From positions 1 through 26,724 of the IMG/VR virus record IMGVR_UViG_3300045999_007246: 26,724 nt of DNA; one strand, written 5' to 3'. The notes below the pieces were generated by a model. It was not told where the DNA came from and did not search any database. It was given only the letters and a program-made list of their open reading frames with translations. The stretch comes from a virus. Positions 6,383-18,785 of the stretch are shown piece by piece. Positions within the stretch are counted from its first letter, which is position 1, and each line of letters starts with the position of its first letter. The position numbers were made by a program, and so were the translations under genes.

Positions 6383-6736
6383 CTAAACAGCCAAATCCAA
6401 GGGCAGAAACTCAACCCAGTTCTTAACGGTATTTTCCGTTGCGCCCACCGCCACGCCGCACTCCCTCCAAGTCGACCCCTGCCTGCGCATAATCACAATC
6501 CGTCTTATCTTCGCTGGGCTGCTTTTACCGCCTAACCTGCAGTTGCCGCCCCGAAACCATTTTTCGTAATCAGCCAATGGCGGAATAGACTTAGCCTGTA
6601 TCGCAATTCTACTCCCGTTGTGAGGCGCAGAAATTATCAAACCCGAACTCTTGGTAACAGCAGGACTGTATATCCTGTTACCCAAATACATTCTGGCAAT
6701 CGTGCCGTTTCCCATCCCAGTCAGACGCTGCGTCAT
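6383..6736 (-). CDS. HTH-domain protein inserted between TerS and TerL
   Basis: A 117-residue basic protein in a tight ATGA overlap with the small terminase-like gene and directly abutting TerL. Residues about 74-106 (SPAKIRRIVIMRRQGSTW, then VAVGATENTVKNWV) look like a helix-turn-helix of the kind in transposase, sigma-like or small terminase proteins: helix, glycine-containing turn, and recognition helix ending in W. The first 70 residues are unlike any family I recognise (NGTIARMYLGNRIYSP, SGLIISAPHNGSRIAIQAKS). Codon use looks poorer in G/C third positions than in TerL and portal, hinting at separate acquisition. It could be a second DNA-recognition subunit for packaging, a late regulator or a moron. 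Function is unresolved. Confidence 0.7.
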   Translation of the reverse strand: MTQRLTGMGNGTIARMYLGNRIYSPAVTKSSGLIISAPHNGSRIAIQAKSIPPLADYEKWFRGGNCRLGGKSSPAKIRRIVIMRRQGSTWRECGVAVGATENTVKNWVEFLPLDLAV

Positions 6737-7248
6737 ACATCATCCCCAATCCCACGAACCAACGTCCCCTCAATCACATTCACCGGCCTCGCCCGATCTG
6801 CAACCATCGCCCTGAGCGTTGCCAAATCCAGATCCTTCGCACTCACACTGTGGTTCACATTCACCGTCTGATCCAACATCCCCAGCAACTGTGCCTGCGT
6901 CTTCACAGCACTAATCGCACTCGGATACGCACCCTTGTCCATCGCCGCCTGAACAACAGCCTGCAACTCATCCAAAAACAAATCCCGCGTATACTCCCGG
7001 CGCTCAACCTCAACCCCCGAAGCCTCAGCCGCCATAATCAACCGCTGAACCTCAGGACGCGCCAGCTGCCTTGAAGCGACAATCGACATGTTCAACTCAG
7101 GGCTCGTAATCCCAGCCCGAACACACGCAATCTCAGCCGCGTTCCCCTTCTTCAACGCACGCTGCTCAACATAAACACGCGCAAAAATCGCGTCCCGATC
7201 CTCAGCGGTTATCGTGTCTAAATCATCCATGCCAGCAAACATAATCAT
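6733..7248 (-). CDS. Small terminase subunit-like protein
   Basis: A 171-residue, mostly helical protein, first gene of the late operon. It resembles small terminase subunits: an N-terminal region AAEIACVRAGITSPELNM that could be a helix-turn-helix, a central oligomerisation region with AISAVKTQAQLLGMLDQT, and the NVNHSVSAKDLDL tail that commonly follows in these proteins. Small terminases recognise the packaging site and stimulate TerL. The order TerS - HTH - TerL - portal supports the role. Start is ambiguous: ATG 7248, ATG 7242 and ATG 7230 are all possible and no strong Shine-Dalgarno sequence decides; I give the longest, which lies about 18 bases from the inferred transcription start. 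Confidence 0.75.
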   Translation of the reverse strand: MIMFAGMDDLDTITAEDRDAIFARVYVEQRALKKGNAAEIACVRAGITSPELNMSIVASRQLARPEVQRLIMAAEASGVEVERREYTRDLFLDELQAVVQAAMDKGAYPSAISAVKTQAQLLGMLDQTVNVNHSVSAKDLDLATLRAMVADRARPVNVIEGTLVRGIGDDV

Positions 7249-7272
7249 CCAAACCGTTCAGCGCAATAAATT

Positions 7273-7301
7273 ATTATATATGGAACCACAGTTAAAAACA
7301 A
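7273..7301 (-). promoter_or_regulatory. Leftward late promoter candidate
   Basis: On the minus strand a perfect -10 hexamer TATAAT (7278 down to 7273) lies 17 bases from TTGTTT (7301 down to 7296), a partial -35. Transcription would begin near 7266, a short leader before the first terminase gene. This is the only good leftward promoter I see ahead of the late block. Confidence 0.55.
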
Positions 7302-7302
7302 A

Positions 7303-7435
7303 GGGGGGTGTTTTAGGGGGTGGGGGGTCTGTGCGTAGCCCAGACGGATTTGGAGCGAAATGTGGGGGAGAGTGGGTATATATAGGATAAAAGCTGCGGC
7401 TCGCGGGCGCGAGTGGGTGGGTGGGGGTGCGCGGG
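7303..7435 (+). other. G-rich tract with G-quadruplex motif in divergent control region
   Basis: The plus strand carries repeated G runs: 7303-7308, 7316-7320, 7322-7327, 7364-7368 and 7373-7375, then GGGTGGGTGGGGGTGCGCGGG at 7415-7435, which by itself satisfies four G3 tracts with loops of 1, 1 and 5 bases. The tract lies directly upstream of the leftward promoter and within the leader region of the rightward genes. No convincing gene lies in it; short minus-strand open frames read C-rich low-complexity peptides and have no ribosome binding sites. Confidence 0.65.
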
Positions 7436-7517
7436 CAGTGCCATAGCCGCCCCCAGCCAGAAACAGGGCGGGCATTGCACCACATCCGGCTGAATATATG
7501 TCCGCATCTGGTGATGG

Positions 7518-7546
7518 TTGTTGACGTTTACGGTTGACCGTATGCG
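7518..7546 (+). promoter_or_regulatory. Rightward promoter/operator candidate with palindrome
   Basis: TACGGTTGACCGTA (7529-7542) is an inverted repeat with 6-bp arms and a TG centre. It sits in the spacer of a weak promoter match, TTGTTG 7518-7523 and TATGCG 7541-7546 with 17-base spacing, ahead of the first rightward gene. TTGACG at 7521 is an alternative -35. A small hairpin TGGGC-GATAT-GCCCA (7569-7583) follows in the leader. Confidence 0.4.
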
Positions 7547-7605
7547 CTGTTTCGTGGTTTCCTGTTCATGGGCGATATGCCCAGTCTAGTGGAAAGGAAA
7601 CAGAC

Positions 7606-7920
7606 ATGAATAAAGATTACACCACATCCGGCGAGCGTGGCGTTGCCACCCGGCTGGTGCGCGCCGCGATCAATGCCGGCTTCACCGTCTCGGTCAACGA
7701 TGGCGAAGAGTGGACGGTCAAGCGCAGCGACAGCGAGGCGGTGATCCTGCCCGCGCTGGCCACCACCGGCCATGACACTCTGCGGTTCCGCAACAGCGCC
7801 GGGGAACACGTCGGCAGCGCCCTCCTTGTTTGGGGCAACGACGAAACCGGCGAGGAACTGATTGCAGACCACACCGACAACGCCGCGACAACCGCGCTCT
7901 ACAACGCCGCGCAACGCTAA
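7606..7920 (+). CDS. Small hypothetical early protein
   Basis: A 104-residue soluble protein, first of the rightward genes. It starts at ATG 7606 after the strong AAAGGAAA ribosome binding site, ending the long leader from the divergent region. Visible pieces are a short helix GVATRLVRAAINAG, a beta-like middle FTVSVNDGEEWTVKR, and a C-terminal DHTDNAATTALYNAAQ. The layout of an N-terminal helix followed by strands and another helix is common in small phage and plasmid proteins, but I do not recognise the family. Its leader is nearly the same as that of the gene at 8196, suggesting shared translational control. An upstream in-frame TTG at 7534 is unlikely. Confidence 0.75.
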   Translation: MNKDYTTSGERGVATRLVRAAINAGFTVSVNDGEEWTVKRSDSEAVILPALATTGHDTLRFRNSAGEHVGSALLVWGNDETGEELIADHTDNAATTALYNAAQR

Positions 7921-7928
7921 TAGCAACA

Positions 7929-7949
7929 GGGCCGGCCCAGCGCCGGCCC
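7929..7949 (+). other. GC-rich hairpin between early genes
   Basis: GGGCCGGC (7929-7936) and GCCGGCCC (7942-7949) form an 8-bp stem with a 5-base loop in the gap between two small genes. No T-run follows, so it is more likely an mRNA stability or processing element than an intrinsic terminator. Confidence 0.5.
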
Positions 7950-7970
7950 ACCACCACGAAAGGAACGACC

Positions 7971-8171
7971 ATGACACGCACCACCATTGAGCAAGCCGAC
8001 GGCACCCTCTGGCTTTGCTGCGACACATATTGGCCACGCCAACGCAACGTTCCGGGCCGTGAATATTGGGTGAGCTACCTGAACGGGCCAGCGACAACCA
8101 TGCCCGGAAGGGTCGTCGGGTTCTATGCCAGCAGCATGGAAGACGCACACAAGAAACTTGGCCTCGCCTGA
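7971..8171 (+). CDS. Small hypothetical protein
   Basis: A 66-residue protein starting at ATG 7971, preceded by GAAAGGAAC. It contains aromatic-rich strands (GTLWLCCDTYWP, REYWVSYLN) and ends in SSMEDAHKKLGLA, a probable helix. No membrane segment or signal peptide. The two adjacent cysteines CC at residues 16-17 are unusual for so short a protein, but no metal site is apparent. It belongs to the first rightward cluster, after the 7929-7949 hairpin. Family not recognised. Confidence 0.7.
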   Translation: MTRTTIEQADGTLWLCCDTYWPRQRNVPGREYWVSYLNGPATTMPGRVVGFYASSMEDAHKKLGLA

Positions 8172-9442: not shown

Positions 9443-9473
9443 AGCCCGCCCTCACCCGGCGGGCTTTTCTTTT
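9443..9473 (+). terminator. Intrinsic terminator of first rightward cluster
   Basis: AGCCCGCC (9443-9450) and GGCGGGCT (9458-9465) form an 8-bp GC-rich stem with a 7-base loop, followed by TTTTCTTTT (9465-9473). This is a textbook rho-independent terminator 22 bases after the 9420 stop. Confidence 0.85.
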
Positions 9474-9715
9474 GCCCGCCAGAGGCACCGCACGGCGCCG
9501 CCAACATCGCGCAGGCACCAGCACCACCCCCGGCGCCCGGACGCGCTGAGAGGGCTTTAAAATCGCTCCCCGGTTGAACCGCATAGGCAGGCCCGCATCC
9601 CTGCATCCCGCACATCGCCCCGCACACCCACCGCCAGAGCCTGTCACCCGGCTGAATTAACGGATGAAGCCCCCGTTTAACGTAACGTGCAGTAATACAG
9701 TCCAAGCCACTGATT
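9474..9715. other. GC-rich gap without a convincing gene
   Basis: No plus-strand gene with a ribosome binding site is visible. A 104-codon minus-strand frame (9391-9705) covers it but reads low-complexity Gly/Ala/Pro and crosses the terminator and the end of the 9133 gene, so I do not accept it. CGGTTGAACCG (9571-9581) is a small palindrome reminiscent of the one at 7529-7542. Confidence 0.5.
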
Positions 9716-9980
9716 TCATTCGATAAAACGTTTTTTCAAACGGAAAAACGCCAAATAAAACGGCCTCTGTATGAGTCCCAAGCCTTTGTTTTTATATCTC
9801 TTTTCCCTATTATTATTATAAATAAAACAGAAAATAGATATATAACCCCAATAGGATTTTTAGTGTGTTGGTTTACTAATACGGGGGGTATGGCTATATC
9901 TATGGGGCTCTATCTTTTTAAAATCCGTTTTATTTTCACATTAACAGCCACTTTATCGAGCGTTTTCAAGAGCTTGCGAG

Positions 9981-9999
9981 TCATACAGTCACTGTATGA
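9981..9999. promoter_or_regulatory. Operator-like palindrome TCATACAGT-C-ACTGTATGA
   Basis: Nine-base arms flank a single C (9990), a nearly perfect dyad typical of dimeric regulators. TATGAT at 9995-10000 is a possible rightward -10, with TTGCGA at 9974-9979 as a short-spaced -35 (15 bases), so the dyad would overlap the promoter. Confidence 0.5.
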
Positions 10000-10088
10000 T
10001 TTTCCCCGCTTTCCGTTTGTTTCCTTTGTTTTCAGTGGCTTAGTCCGTATGATTAAGGGTTTCTTAATAAATAGGTTTTTCCGTGTGA

Positions 10089-10130
10089 TTGCAGTGACTT
10101 AGGTGTTTTGTGATATACTGTATCATACAG
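10089..10130 (+). promoter_or_regulatory. Rightward promoter with overlapping dyads
   Basis: TATACT (10114-10119) is a good -10 and TTGCAG (10089-10094) a possible -35, though the spacing of 19 is long. Two dyads overlap the -10: TGATA-TACTG-TATCA (10111-10125) and CTGTAT-C-ATACAG (10118-10130), the latter sharing the half-site of 9981-9999. Transcription would lead to the gene at 10272. Confidence 0.45.
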
Positions 10131-10271
10131 GCTTGCGTTGGTTTTCGTATAAATCCGGCATCGGTTATAAATACATCCGTTTATGCTGCTGATTGTAGTT
10201 GCAGAAAAACACGTCAGCGAATAGCGATGTGTAGCGGTTTCTTGACGAGCCGCTGAACGTAGGGAGCATGT

Positions 10272-12877: not shown

Positions 12878-12901
12878 ATGGGCGAGGGCGATGTCGGATA
12901 G
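12878..12901 (+). other. Possible 7-codon leader peptide
   Basis: ATG 12878 has GAGGGG 7 bases upstream and encodes MGEGDVG, ending in TAG at 12899-12901. It overlaps the start of the HTH gene at 12891 in another frame, so it could tune translation of that gene. Very short and unproven. Confidence 0.3.
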
Positions 12902-14700: not shown

Positions 14701-15093
14701 ATGACCGGGAATTGTGGCGATGTCCAAGGCTTGCCTAAAAACCACAAGAGCGGCGGGAGGCGTGCTCCCCCCTGTTCCCCCGCCGTATCCGTCAAGTCCC
14801 GGTCATACACAATCCGTGACATCAAGGATCGCCTGAGTCCGTCTCACATCGAGGCGCTGTGCCGGGACTGGTTGCCGCGCGGCAAGCGACAGGGTGGTTG
14901 GTATTTAGCATGTGCGCCGTGGCGCGACGACCGAAACCCATCGTTGGGCGTATCGTTCAGCACTGGGCGCTGGCAGGACTTCGCGACCGGCGAGAAGGGC
15001 GACATGATTGACCTGTCCATGAAGCTGTTCGGCGACAGCCTGCAGGAAACCATCAACGGCTTCGCCGAAATGCTGGGCCTGACCCATGCGTAA
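14701..15093 (+). CDS. Primase zinc-domain-like protein with missing cysteines
   Basis: A protein of up to 130 residues. Its second half WYLACAPWRDDRNPSLGVSF, then GRWQDFATGEKGDMIDLSM, follows the layout of the DnaG-type N-terminal zinc domain (CPFHxxxxPSFxV ... GGDxIDF), but only one of the zinc cysteines (CAPW) is clear. It is therefore degenerate and may bind DNA without zinc, or with other ligands. The first 35 residues are unlike a domain, and the start is uncertain because a promoter lies immediately upstream; a downstream start near RDIKDRLSP is possible. It overlaps the primase-helicase gene by 8 bases, which supports a split primase. Confidence 0.7.
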   Translation: MTGNCGDVQGLPKNHKSGGRRAPPCSPAVSVKSRSYTIRDIKDRLSPSHIEALCRDWLPRGKRQGGWYLACAPWRDDRNPSLGVSFSTGRWQDFATGEKGDMIDLSMKLFGDSLQETINGFAEMLGLTHA

Positions 15094-17491
15094 GGTAGAC
15101 CTGAAGGCACTGGCGATTGCTGAGGACATCACGGCTAAGGCCGAGATCGTCACGCCGATGCCTGAGCCGGTGGTGATCCCGGACTCGCTGCGAAAGTCTC
15201 TCGGCCCGGAGCCTGATGCGATGTGGATCTACCGCATGGCTGATGGCGCCGCGTTTGGCGCGGTGGCACGGTGGAATCCGCCGGGTGCGCGCAAAGAGAT
15301 CAGGCCGATTGTCTGGGACGGGAAGAAGTTTCTCACGTCCGGGTTCGGCAAGGGGCGCCCGCTGTATAACGGCGACCTGCTGGCGGCGTCGCCGACTGCG
15401 CCTGTCCTGATCGTCGAGGGCGAGAAGGCCGCCGATGGTGCAGCGCAATATGTGCCTGAGGGCTGGGTCATTACGACGTGGCAGGGCGGGGCGAAGGCTG
15501 TCGAGCAGACGGACTGGAGCCTGCTGGCTGGGCATAGCTGCGTGATCTGGCCAGACAACGACACGCCGGGGATCGAGGCGGCGCTGGAGATTCAGAAGAT
15601 ACTGGGCGAGCACCGCGTCCCGGTGTCGATCGTTACCCTGAGTGTGGTGTTCCCGGACGGATGGGATCTCGCGGACACCCTGCCGTTGAAGGTGAAGCCG
15701 CAGCAGGTCACGGACATCCTGCGCCGGGAACTGATGCGCGCGGCGGTGCCGGAGGCGACGGTTGCAGTGATCGAGGCGATTGAGGATCCCGACGAGAATG
15801 CCGCACGCGAGTGGCGCCCGCTAGGCTTTGACCACGACACTTATTATTTGCATCTACAGAATCGGCAGCAGGTGATTGATTTTCACATTGACCGCCTGCG
15901 GACGAGGGCTGGGTGCCTAGCGGTCTATGCCGACAAAAACCACTGGGCATGGCTGCAGGGAAAAACGGACGTCAAAGGCATCGACTGGGAAGAAGCCGGT
16001 TCAATGGTGATCAAGCAGTGCGAGGATGTCGGCGTGTATAACCCGGCCCGGCTGCGCGGACGGGGTGTCTGGCTGGACGACAAGGATGGGCCGCGGGCTA
16101 TCCTGAACTCAGGGAATAAGCTGCTGGTGGCGCGTCCCGACCGTGAAACGCGAGAGGTGAAGCATGTCCGACTGCAGAGCCGTTACAACTACACGCTGGG
16201 AGCCGACTTGATCTTAGATGTCGATAAGTTTGACGTGCGCGCGACCGACGACGATGGCCGCATGATCCGTGAACTGTGCAACAAGGTGCGCTGGGAAGCG
16301 CCGATCCACGGCGACCTGCTGGCCGGCTGGATTGCGACGGCGGTGGTGTGCGGCGGACTGGACTGGCGAACGCATGTGTGGCTCACGGGAAACCAAGGTT
16401 CAGGGAAGTCCACGGTCGTGGAAATGGTGGGAACTATGATTGGAACCGTGGCGATTTACCCTTTGGGCGCCACGACCGAGGCCGGGATCCGGCAGTGGAT
16501 CGGGAACGATTCGATACCGGTGGTGTTCGACGAAGCGGAGAATGGCGACAAAGAAGCCAAGATGGCGTCGGCGGCGCGTCGTAAGGCCGTGATGGATCTG
16601 ATGCGGCAGTCGTCGAGCGAGACCCGGGGACGGATTCTGAAGGGGTCTGCGAACCATCAGGGGCATTCGTTCACGATGCGGTCTTCGTTCCTGATGTCGT
16701 CGATTGGCGTGGGCCTGAAGGAAGCCGCCGACCTGACGCGCACGGCGGTGCTGACGCTCAGGCCAGTGGAGTCGTTCACGGCTGAGGAGCGGCGCAAGAG
16801 GGAAGAGGACTTCAAAGACTTCGTGGCCATGACTTTGGCGATCCCGAAGGACATGCCGCAGCGGCTACTGGCGCGCCAGTTGGAAAACCTGTTCACGCTG
16901 CGCCACAACATCTCGGTCTTCAAGGAAACGATTGCCACGGTGCTGGCGAACCGCCGCATCGGCGATCAGATTGGGACGCTGCTGGCTGGGTGCTACAGTC
17001 TCTACAGCACAAAGATGTTGGATATGAAGCAGTGCGAGAACTATCTGGCCACGATAAACCTTGAAGAGTTCCTGACGGTCAAGACGGAGCGCGAGGACAA
17101 GGTGTTGCTGAATCACATCGTGCAGGCGACGGTGCGGGTTGAGACGGCGCAGGGCATGCAGGATCGGACCATCGGGGAACTGCTGCTGATCTGCTTTAAA
17201 ATGGATGAACATTCGGATGTGCGGCTGAAGGTGGCCGACGACACGCTGGCGCGTTACGGGCTGAAGGTCGAGCGCGAGTATGCCGTTCCGACGGGGGTGT
17301 GGATCGGCCAGAGCATCACGTCGCTGAATAGAATTATGGATGCGTCGGTCTATCACGAGGGGTGGGTGGGCGTGTTGTTGCGCCACCCTGCCGCGAAGAG
17401 GAGCGTAAACTCGGTCTACTTCAAGGGGACGATGTCGCGCGCGATTTTTATGCCGAAGGAAGAGTGGCCAGTAGGGGTATGGGACCGATGA
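15086..17491 (+). CDS. TOPRIM and AAA+ helicase-type primase-helicase
   Basis: An 801-residue protein. A TOPRIM domain is seen at about residues 105-200: VLIVEGEKAADGA (E111), VIWPDNDTPG (D157/D159) and DGWDLAD. The C-terminal half is a phage-type AAA+ ATPase with Walker A GNQGSGKS at 435-442, Walker B PVVFDEAE at 478-485 and a downstream arginine-rich segment RTAVLTLRP. Together these make and extend primers and unwind DNA at the fork. Start ATG 15086 overlaps the previous gene. The domain order is like phage primase-helicases, with the zinc domain split into the preceding gene. Its stop overlaps the next gene's ATG. Confidence 0.85.
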   Translation: MRKVDLKALAIAEDITAKAEIVTPMPEPVVIPDSLRKSLGPEPDAMWIYRMADGAAFGAVARWNPPGARKEIRPIVWDGKKFLTSGFGKGRPLYNGDLLAASPTAPVLIVEGEKAADGAAQYVPEGWVITTWQGGAKAVEQTDWSLLAGHSCVIWPDNDTPGIEAALEIQKILGEHRVPVSIVTLSVVFPDGWDLADTLPLKVKPQQVTDILRRELMRAAVPEATVAVIEAIEDPDENAAREWRPLGFDHDTYYLHLQNRQQVIDFHIDRLRTRAGCLAVYADKNHWAWLQGKTDVKGIDWEEAGSMVIKQCEDVGVYNPARLRGRGVWLDDKDGPRAILNSGNKLLVARPDRETREVKHVRLQSRYNYTLGADLILDVDKFDVRATDDDGRMIRELCNKVRWEAPIHGDLLAGWIATAVVCGGLDWRTHVWLTGNQGSGKSTVVEMVGTMIGTVAIYPLGATTEAGIRQWIGNDSIPVVFDEAENGDKEAKMASAARRKAVMDLMRQSSSETRGRILKGSANHQGHSFTMRSSFLMSSIGVGLKEAADLTRTAVLTLRPVESFTAEERRKREEDFKDFVAMTLAIPKDMPQRLLARQLENLFTLRHNISVFKETIATVLANRRIGDQIGTLLAGCYSLYSTKMLDMKQCENYLATINLEEFLTVKTEREDKVLLNHIVQATVRVETAQGMQDRTIGELLLICFKMDEHSDVRLKVADDTLARYGLKVEREYAVPTGVWIGQSITSLNRIMDASVYHEGWVGVLLRHPAAKRSVNSVYFKGTMSRAIFMPKEEWPVGVWDR

Positions 17492-17652: not shown

Positions 17653-17702
17653 GTTGAAACGGCGGGTAGAACCCGTAGAGTATGAAAAAACCGGAGGACA
17701 GA

Positions 17703-17930
17703 ATGACGTTTAAAATTGAAGATGGTTACGAGATCCCTGCTGAGCGGCAACCCCGCAAGCGCCGGGCGAAGTATCCTTGGAACGAACTGAATGTGGGCCA
17801 GAGTTTCTTTGTCGACGGCGCGAAGCTTCGTTCGATGAGCAGCACTGCGTCACACGCCGGTCGTCGTTTGAGTCGTAAGTTTGTTGTGCGTAATGCTGAA
17901 GGTGGCGTTCGCGTTTGGCGCTTTGACTGA
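17703..17930 (+). CDS. Small basic phage protein with VGQSFFV...VRNAEGGVRVWR motif
   Basis: A 75-residue basic protein. ATG 17703 has GGAGG at 5 bases; ATG 17682 lies in frame upstream but lacks a ribosome binding site. The sequence LNVGQSFFVDGAKLRSMSST followed by SRKFVVRNAEGGVRVWRFD belongs to a small protein often found in phages: a first strand VGQSFFV, a helix rich in Ser/Ala, and a final strand ending VRVWR. It is probably DNA- or RNA-binding given the basic helix, but no role is established. A short CGGGT-AGA-ACCCG dyad precedes it. Confidence 0.7.
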   Translation: MTFKIEDGYEIPAERQPRKRRAKYPWNELNVGQSFFVDGAKLRSMSSTASHAGRRLSRKFVVRNAEGGVRVWRFD

Positions 17931-18120: not shown

Positions 18121-18249
18121 ATGTCGGGCCGATACCTGCTGGCAGTCATGGTCGCGACGTTTGCGACTGCGATCTTTCTCATCGTCCGTAACAAGGCGAC
18201 CGAGCAGGAGACGCTGGACATGCTATACGACGACGACATCTGGCCATGA
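18121..18249 (+). CDS. Small single-pass membrane protein
   Basis: A 42-residue protein from ATG 18121, 2 bases after the previous stop. MSGRYLLAVMVATFATAIFL then IVRNKATEQETLDMLYDDDI gives one membrane span near residues 5-22 and a short acidic tail. The stop overlaps the next ATG. It may anchor at the inner membrane with the tail in the cytoplasm. No family recognised. Candidate for a host membrane-protein modulator; a holin role is not supported by the sequence. Confidence 0.6.
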   Translation: MSGRYLLAVMVATFATAIFLIVRNKATEQETLDMLYDDDIWP

Positions 18250-18785
18250 GTAGCCAAGACATTCCCCTGCACCAATATGTCTGGGTGTCGAGCGCCCTGA
18301 TCCGGCGCGATGGGGAAGGCTGGGAGCCTGCGGTGTGGTTCGCCATACGCAGTGAACCGGGTCGGGCTTGGGGTTGCCACGTCATGCTGGAGTGCGGCGC
18401 CGTTTATCGCGGTGTCCCACCCCATGCGATTGCGTTCAGCCCCAAGCCCGGTCAGCCACACTGGACGCTGAGGCAGGCGCAGGTGTGGGATTGCTACGGC
18501 CACGGGTTCGACGTGGTGCGCTATGCGTATCTCTCGGATCTCACGGCGCGCTATGACTGCACCGATCACCGGGCGCGCTATCTGTTCACGGCTTGCCCGC
18601 GGGACGATGGGTTCAGCGCGGCGCCGGAGCAGAGCAAAGAGTTTATGTTTATGCGGACGGAGGGGGACAGGCTCCTGATCCGACCGACGAATATGCTGCT
18701 GTTCGAGGAGCGCAGTTTCACTGAGGACACCGGCTGGCCGAGCAATCTGGCTACGTCCAGCGAGATATGGAGGTGCGAACGATGA
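18246..18785 (+). CDS. Conserved hypothetical protein, 179 residues
   Basis: ATG 18246 overlaps the preceding TGA. The protein is rich in Trp, Cys and aromatic strands: EPAVWFAIRSEPGRAWGCHV then ECGAVYRGVPPHAIAFSPKP and WTLRQAQVWDCYGHGFDVVR. The arrangement suggests a beta-rich domain with several cysteines (C44, C50, C82 and others), some possibly metal-binding. The C-terminus contains a hydrophobic segment RLLIRPTNMLLFEE. I do not recognise the family. It is placed between two membrane proteins, so it may act with them. Confidence 0.7.
   Translation: MSSQDIPLHQYVWVSSALIRRDGEGWEPAVWFAIRSEPGRAWGCHVMLECGAVYRGVPPHAIAFSPKPGQPHWTLRQAQVWDCYGHGFDVVRYAYLSDLTARYDCTDHRARYLFTACPRDDGFSAAPEQSKEFMFMRTEGDRLLIRPTNMLLFEERSFTEDTGWPSNLATSSEIWRCER

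Follow-up and report, generated by a model that had tools for sequence, protein, structure and literature searches.

Does the AT-rich, repeat-bearing stretch between two gene blocks of this phage serve as an origin of replication, or as an operator array for some regulator, the two functions offered by the initial annotation? The window, that is, the whole 26,724-base stretch of DNA analysed, is an IMG/VR virus record of a tailed phage with recognised genes for terminase, portal, RecE/RecT, helicase and primase. The low GC content of the stretch is real, at 0.376 for positions 9716-10260 compared with 0.593 for the window as a whole. Four lines of sequence evidence favour the origin half of the proposal: each genome has a single repeat cluster, its clade-specific words have changed together, the array is co-inherited with a primase-helicase, and distant relatives carry an array immediately behind the primase-helicase gene. 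On these grounds we estimate a probability of about 85% that the region is the phage replication origin, its YGTWTNA iterons probably being bound by the primase-helicase encoded at 15086-17491.

Most of the repeats first described were recovered, although not always in the form proposed. The dyad at 9981-9999 (TCATACAGTCACTGTATGA, 9-bp arms) is exact; when the region was shuffled 1000 times at the dinucleotide level, a dyad with arms of this length arose in 21 of the shuffles, making it a ~2% event. The second, placed at 10111-10130, is present but actually reads CTGTATCATACAG at 10118-10130. Half-sites at 9767 (CTGTATGA) and 10046 (CGTATGA) and the CAGTGRCTTAG pair, as CAGTGGCTTAG at 10033 and CAGTGACTTAG at 10092, were all found where expected; CTGTATGA occurs four times in the region, a number reached by 3 of 1000 dinucleotide shuffles. 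In relatives the half-sites are kept but the perfect palindromes are lost, L002 and L003 for example showing CTGTATGT where the window shows CTGTATGA. The conserved unit is a looser 7-bp iteron, YGTWTNA, on both strands, rather than a perfect dyad. The exact dyad consists of two convergent iterons, and CTGTATCATACAG of two overlapping iterons that border a conserved promoter/leader block.

Thirteen such iterons surround an AT-rich core and define the predicted origin core at 9693-10130. Eight lie on the minus strand (9693, 9724, 9736, 9756, 9823, 9877, 9981 and 10123) and five on the plus strand (9768, 9926, 9993, 10046 and 10119). The array therefore starts at 9693, slightly outside the limits of 9716-10260 first given. 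All 13 fall in the 500 nt from 9693, the densest in the contig, whereas no other 500-nt segment of the window contains more than four, so that this one short word is clustered beside the AT-rich core and nowhere else. Each of the seven contigs examined likewise has one dense cluster (10-13 sites per 500 nt versus 1-4 elsewhere) and no second one.

The core itself, at 9799-9846, is a predicted DNA unwinding element containing TTATTATTATTATAAAT, which alignments show to be near-invariant in window-type and T-type relatives; in a third group of relatives the aligned core is equally AT-rich. It is not strictly A/T-only, as had been supposed, since CCTATTATTATTATAAATAAAACAGAAAATAGATATATAAC has several G/C positions, and an iteron (9823-9829, minus strand) is embedded in it. 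To its right, alignments reveal a conserved plus-strand flank at 9847-9910 composed of CCCC, a dyad position and a single-copy TATrGGG. The flank dyad is significant in the GTGACA-type relatives and in L068 but not in the window, where 115 of 300 shuffles match it. At 9853-9905 the arms of this dyad vary among relatives (a TGTATACA pair, TGTTGAC/GTCAACA or CCTAT/ATAGG) while its position, followed by the single TATrGGG, is constant. Beside the iterons are CAnnnnCTTR elements, one being TTTCAAGAGCTTG at 9964-9976 on the plus strand and the others near 9703, 9779, 10033 and 10092; they resemble the IHF consensus and are modestly enriched. On the left, an intrinsic terminator at 9443-9465 (plus strand), its stem and T-run largely kept in relatives, closes the preceding rightward gene block. 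Cumulative GC skew, which the initial annotation had suggested as a check, reaches its minimum at 9849 in the window and inside the region in window-type and T-type contigs. In GTGACA-type contigs that minimum falls 2-3 kb left of it, and the skew may therefore be a product of divergent transcription.

Counterparts of the region occur in about 30 IMG/VR phage contigs, not all of which have the gene that follows it in the window. That gene, encoding a DUF7007 protein, was present in 25 viral contigs, and in each of the 25 it is preceded by the AT-rich stretch, although only 424 bases upstream were available for L025. The stretch is also kept in L051, L053, L054, L058 and L061, of which L053, L054 and L061 yielded no DUF7007 gene, and since the array persists in such phages the region is not merely the DUF7007 leader. 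Relatives fall into clades with different words, each repeated within its genome: YGTWTNA (window type), YGTTTCA, YGTGACA and TGTTACA, the last in a 52%-identical clade in which L068 has ten copies and none elsewhere in the locus. The best 7-mer beats nearly all shuffles in most relatives; L026 had no strong word. Because the sequences are related, counts across these genomes are not independent. Searches for DNA similarity to annotated phages and plasmids found none, an Rfam search gave nothing near gathering scores, and a genome scan for relatives returned no close prophage, the best partial match being a contig of a Sphingomonadales MAG with 55% identity over residues 1-217.

Since YGTWTNA was defined on the window's own data, T-type positions carried over by alignment provide a stronger and independent test than the window count. 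Eight of the 11 ungapped T-type iteron positions read YGTWTNA in the window (9693, 9736, 9756, 9768, 9823, 9926, 9981 and 10046) against a background of ~1.5%. The mean pairwise match among these eight aligned words was 4.1 of 7, whereas 5000 random draws gave a maximum of 2.7. That so many sites changed in the same way points to one trans-acting, co-evolving protein.

If the repeats are binding sites, their binder is expected to be inherited with the word. Each conserved window gene was therefore compared between same-word relatives (G002 and L048) and other-word relatives (G005, L061, L053, L054 and L051). Nearly all genes, including those for terminase, helicase, RecE, RecT and the 12891 protein, were equally or more similar to their counterparts in other-word phages. 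Of the conserved genes compared, the word is clearly tracked only by the part of the primase-helicase from residue ~201 to 800 and by the 82-aa gene at 17682, so that word and predicted initiator are co-inherited. The gain toward same-word relatives was 16 points for primase-helicase residues 201-300, 8 for 301-400, 8 for 501-600 and 14 for 701-800; residues 1-200 did not track the word. This suggests a recombination breakpoint within the 15086-17491 gene, near residue 200. Similarity to L061 and other T-type phages is 94-100% before about residue 200 and as low as 34% in residues 251-300. At residues 676 (N/D/H) and 757 (H/Y/F) each of the three types has its own fixed amino acid, an observation to be taken as a lead only. 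The 82-aa protein, a DUF7303 member encoded at 17682-17930 on the plus strand and adjoining the primase-helicase, gained 11 points, probably by linkage. It may be a linked passenger or an accessory factor.

The predicted cognate initiator (15086-17491, plus strand) is an 801-aa protein with a Toprim primase part, an AAA+ helicase part and a C-terminal winged-helix-like domain. Its N-terminal part has the predicted fold of a DnaG-type Toprim primase, matching the DnaG catalytic core 1eqn with E 1.5e-04. A separate 130-aa protein, whose gene at 14701-15093 (plus strand) overlaps the 15086 start, supplies the CHC2 zinc-binding domain; it matched the TIGR01391 dnaG profile with E 4.6e-08, which is below the model's curated cut-off. 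CHC2 and Toprim together identify the primase as DnaG-type. CHC2 is encoded by its own gene in the window and is apparently fused to the primase in phages S-H1 and PY223. After the Toprim part come a P-loop (GNQGSGKST) and a Walker B-like FDEAE, in a region where the AAA+ model is poor (pLDDT under 50). Among profiles, DUF5906 and Toprim scored below gathering thresholds in the window protein, the helicase part did not reach the curated Primase_Cterm cut-off, and the P4-family profile TIGR01613 gave E 0.093 and 11.6 bits against a cut-off of 108.7. A sequence search of solved structures returned nothing useful.

The C-terminal 130 residues were modelled well, with a winged-helix-like order of elements. 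Foldseek with this domain alone gave no significant match. In a second structural alignment the best DNA-binding match was SaPIbov1 Rep (residues 453-558; Z 5.2, 3.5 A, 89 aa, a Z in the chance range), followed by other DNA-binding domains, mostly winged helices, such as TcpK bound to oriT. The resemblance to SaPIbov1 Rep is therefore to be read as suggestive.

Distant primase-helicases, 33-36% identical and obtained by profile search, provided 45 testable loci. An array was called where the most repeated 7-mer within 500 nt downstream of the stop outnumbered that of every other 500-nt window of the locus. By this measure 24 of the 45 loci, representing 15 non-redundant arrays, have an array directly downstream of the primase-helicase gene and around an AT-rich core, which mostly lies 90-240 nt after the stop; five of the 45 were borderline. 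Examples are L216, with CGTAAGA eleven times around TATAAATAGAAAATAAAAAAAATAAAATG, and L190, with a CGTTACA array. In six relatives the similarity stops at residue 710-729, so that their C-terminus is a different one, and none of the six has an array there; the association between C-terminus and array gave a Fisher p of 0.007 with redundant loci counted as independent. Ten full-match relatives also lack an array directly downstream, two of them having one further away: it is missing in L188, L194, L195, L202, L213, L215, L217 and L227, and the more distant arrays are those of L214 and L230. In the cultivated Synechococcus phage S-H1 an AT stretch surrounded by CGTTAG/CCGTTCG repeats immediately follows the primase gene, and no array was found behind the gene in the other named relatives, Bordetella phage PY223, ZRG1, Dolphis and MQ-4.

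Comparable initiators are known from several mobile elements. Satellite phage P4, with its alpha protein, ori and crr, resembles the window in having iterons and a primase and helicase fused in one initiator; its primase is of the archaeo-eukaryotic type, whereas that of the window is of the DnaG/Toprim type, and no counterpart of its second element, crr, was seen in the window. The fusion of helicase and primase in alpha has been described previously (PMC7145576). SaPI origins share with the window multiple short iterons and an AAA+ helicase initiator; the C-terminal DNA-binding domain of that initiator may have a counterpart in the window protein, given the weak fold match with SaPIbov1 Rep (PDB 8tch). 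They differ in lying directly downstream of rep (PMC7581432), whereas the window array is ~5 kb upstream of 15086, and in that the window protein has a DnaG-type Toprim primase part and a helicase below the curated Primase_Cterm cut-off. SCCmec, with its putative origin, offers a parallel in the initiator helicase Cch2, the C-terminal domain of which binds in vitro, when isolated, to short iterons downstream of the cch2 gene (PMC7581432); however, Cch2 has three AAGTG iterons and a separate primase/polymerase, CCPol-MP, where the window combines ~13 YGTWTNA iterons, lying in either orientation, with a Toprim primase fused to the helicase. A further comparison is with S-H1 (MK105819), which has a 33%-identical primase-helicase and unannotated repeats around an AT core; there the array is directly behind the gene, the repeat word is another one and CHC2 is apparently fused. 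By analogy the window origin may work like those of SaPI, SCC and P4. We do not assign it to these groups, because the gene-adjacent position is lacking and their family profiles are not reached. The distance of 5 kb from the gene, where SaPIs and distant relatives have the origin just downstream, also counts against the origin reading itself.

The remaining half of the original proposal, that a phage regulator binds the repeats solely to switch the rightward block on or off and the region has no origin function, is the best placed of the alternatives and is nevertheless improbable. The array does lie between two gene blocks, just upstream of the rightward one, its half-sites are palindromic, and a promoter-like element follows it in the GTGACA-type relatives. 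The repeats, however, extend over 440 bp around an AT core and form one cluster in each genome, arrays of this kind follow the primase-helicase gene in distant relatives, and the array is retained where the next gene, DUF7007, is missing (L053, L054 and L061). The helix-turn-helix protein encoded at 12891, put forward as a candidate regulator, was rejected because it does not follow the word, being 100% identical in the other-word phage L061 and not found in GTGACA-type contigs. The region may still serve both jobs, as the right edge at 10131-10271 (plus strand), a conserved leader near-identical in window-type relatives, probably carries the promoter of the rightward block. GTGACA-type relatives have a TTGACA-like element at the matching place; a sigma-70 scan called no consensus site in 10131-10271 of the window, and promoter-like sites were no commoner than in shuffles.

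Such a promoter would also be needed if its RNA primed replication and the repeats regulated it, which we regard as very unlikely. The AT core, the promoter-like element at the right edge in relatives and the conserved TATrGGG, reminiscent of T7-like start sites, are compatible with transcription priming, but TATrGGG is single copy in this context, for which reason a T7-like promoter was rejected, and the phage itself encodes a primase; no match to a single-subunit RNA polymerase was obtained in five contigs, in a search whose control genomes were silent too. Repeat arrays also mark pac sites and centromeres, and packaging genes, transcribed leftward, are nearby, yet a packaging (pac/cos) or partition site bound by a small terminase subunit or a ParB-like protein is the least probable reading of all, given that terminase genes are more alike across different words than within the same word, the opposite of a cognate pair, and that no ParA/ParB family was among the window proteins scanned.

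For the origin reading, we infer binding, melting, loading and firing along the following lines. The C-terminal winged-helix-like domain would attach the primase-helicase to iterons on either side of the AT core, where the protein would form helicase rings in the manner described for SaPI Rep and SCC Cch2. The protein would then melt the AT core and travel outward, while the Toprim domain and the separate CHC2 domain would lay primers. These would likely be extended by a host polymerase, since no family A, B or C polymerase scored over its cut-off in large relatives, whose contigs may be incomplete, in searches with positive controls.

It is rare for the replication origin of an uncultivated phage to be located, and phage primases of the Toprim type are not commonly regarded as initiators that bind an origin. 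More tentatively, and with somewhat less than even odds, the locus might represent a widespread and undescribed class of phage replicon in which a DnaG-type primase fused to an AAA+ helicase is its own origin-binding initiator, the iteron word has been re-coded repeatedly in concert, origin-specificity types are exchanged by recombination, and the origin has moved 5 kb in one lineage. With the pairing of C-terminal domain and iteron word, origins can be sought in hundreds of phage contigs by a testable rule; the pairing also predicts between which phages origins could be shared or excluded, and provides natural protein-DNA pairs for studying changes in initiator specificity.

Several other features were observed. 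L186, whose primase-helicase has a different C-terminus, carries eight copies of AATACCGCG-type repeats at ~7400-8000, possibly iterons of another specificity. A 51%-identical relative, L182, has dense GAGCGAG, TGGCTCG and AGAACCA repeats, 15-16 copies each, at ~6700-7400. In L067 a block of ~50 nt containing ACACATATATGTGA and CACATATAGGTGA is present in two copies between small genes, at 6840-6905 and 7320-7390. In the window, a leftward open frame at 24614-26722 matches very large phage proteins (phrog_14770, phrog_616) at their C-terminal end, and 18246-18785 has a weak match to a phage family annotated as ferredoxin (phrog_3704).
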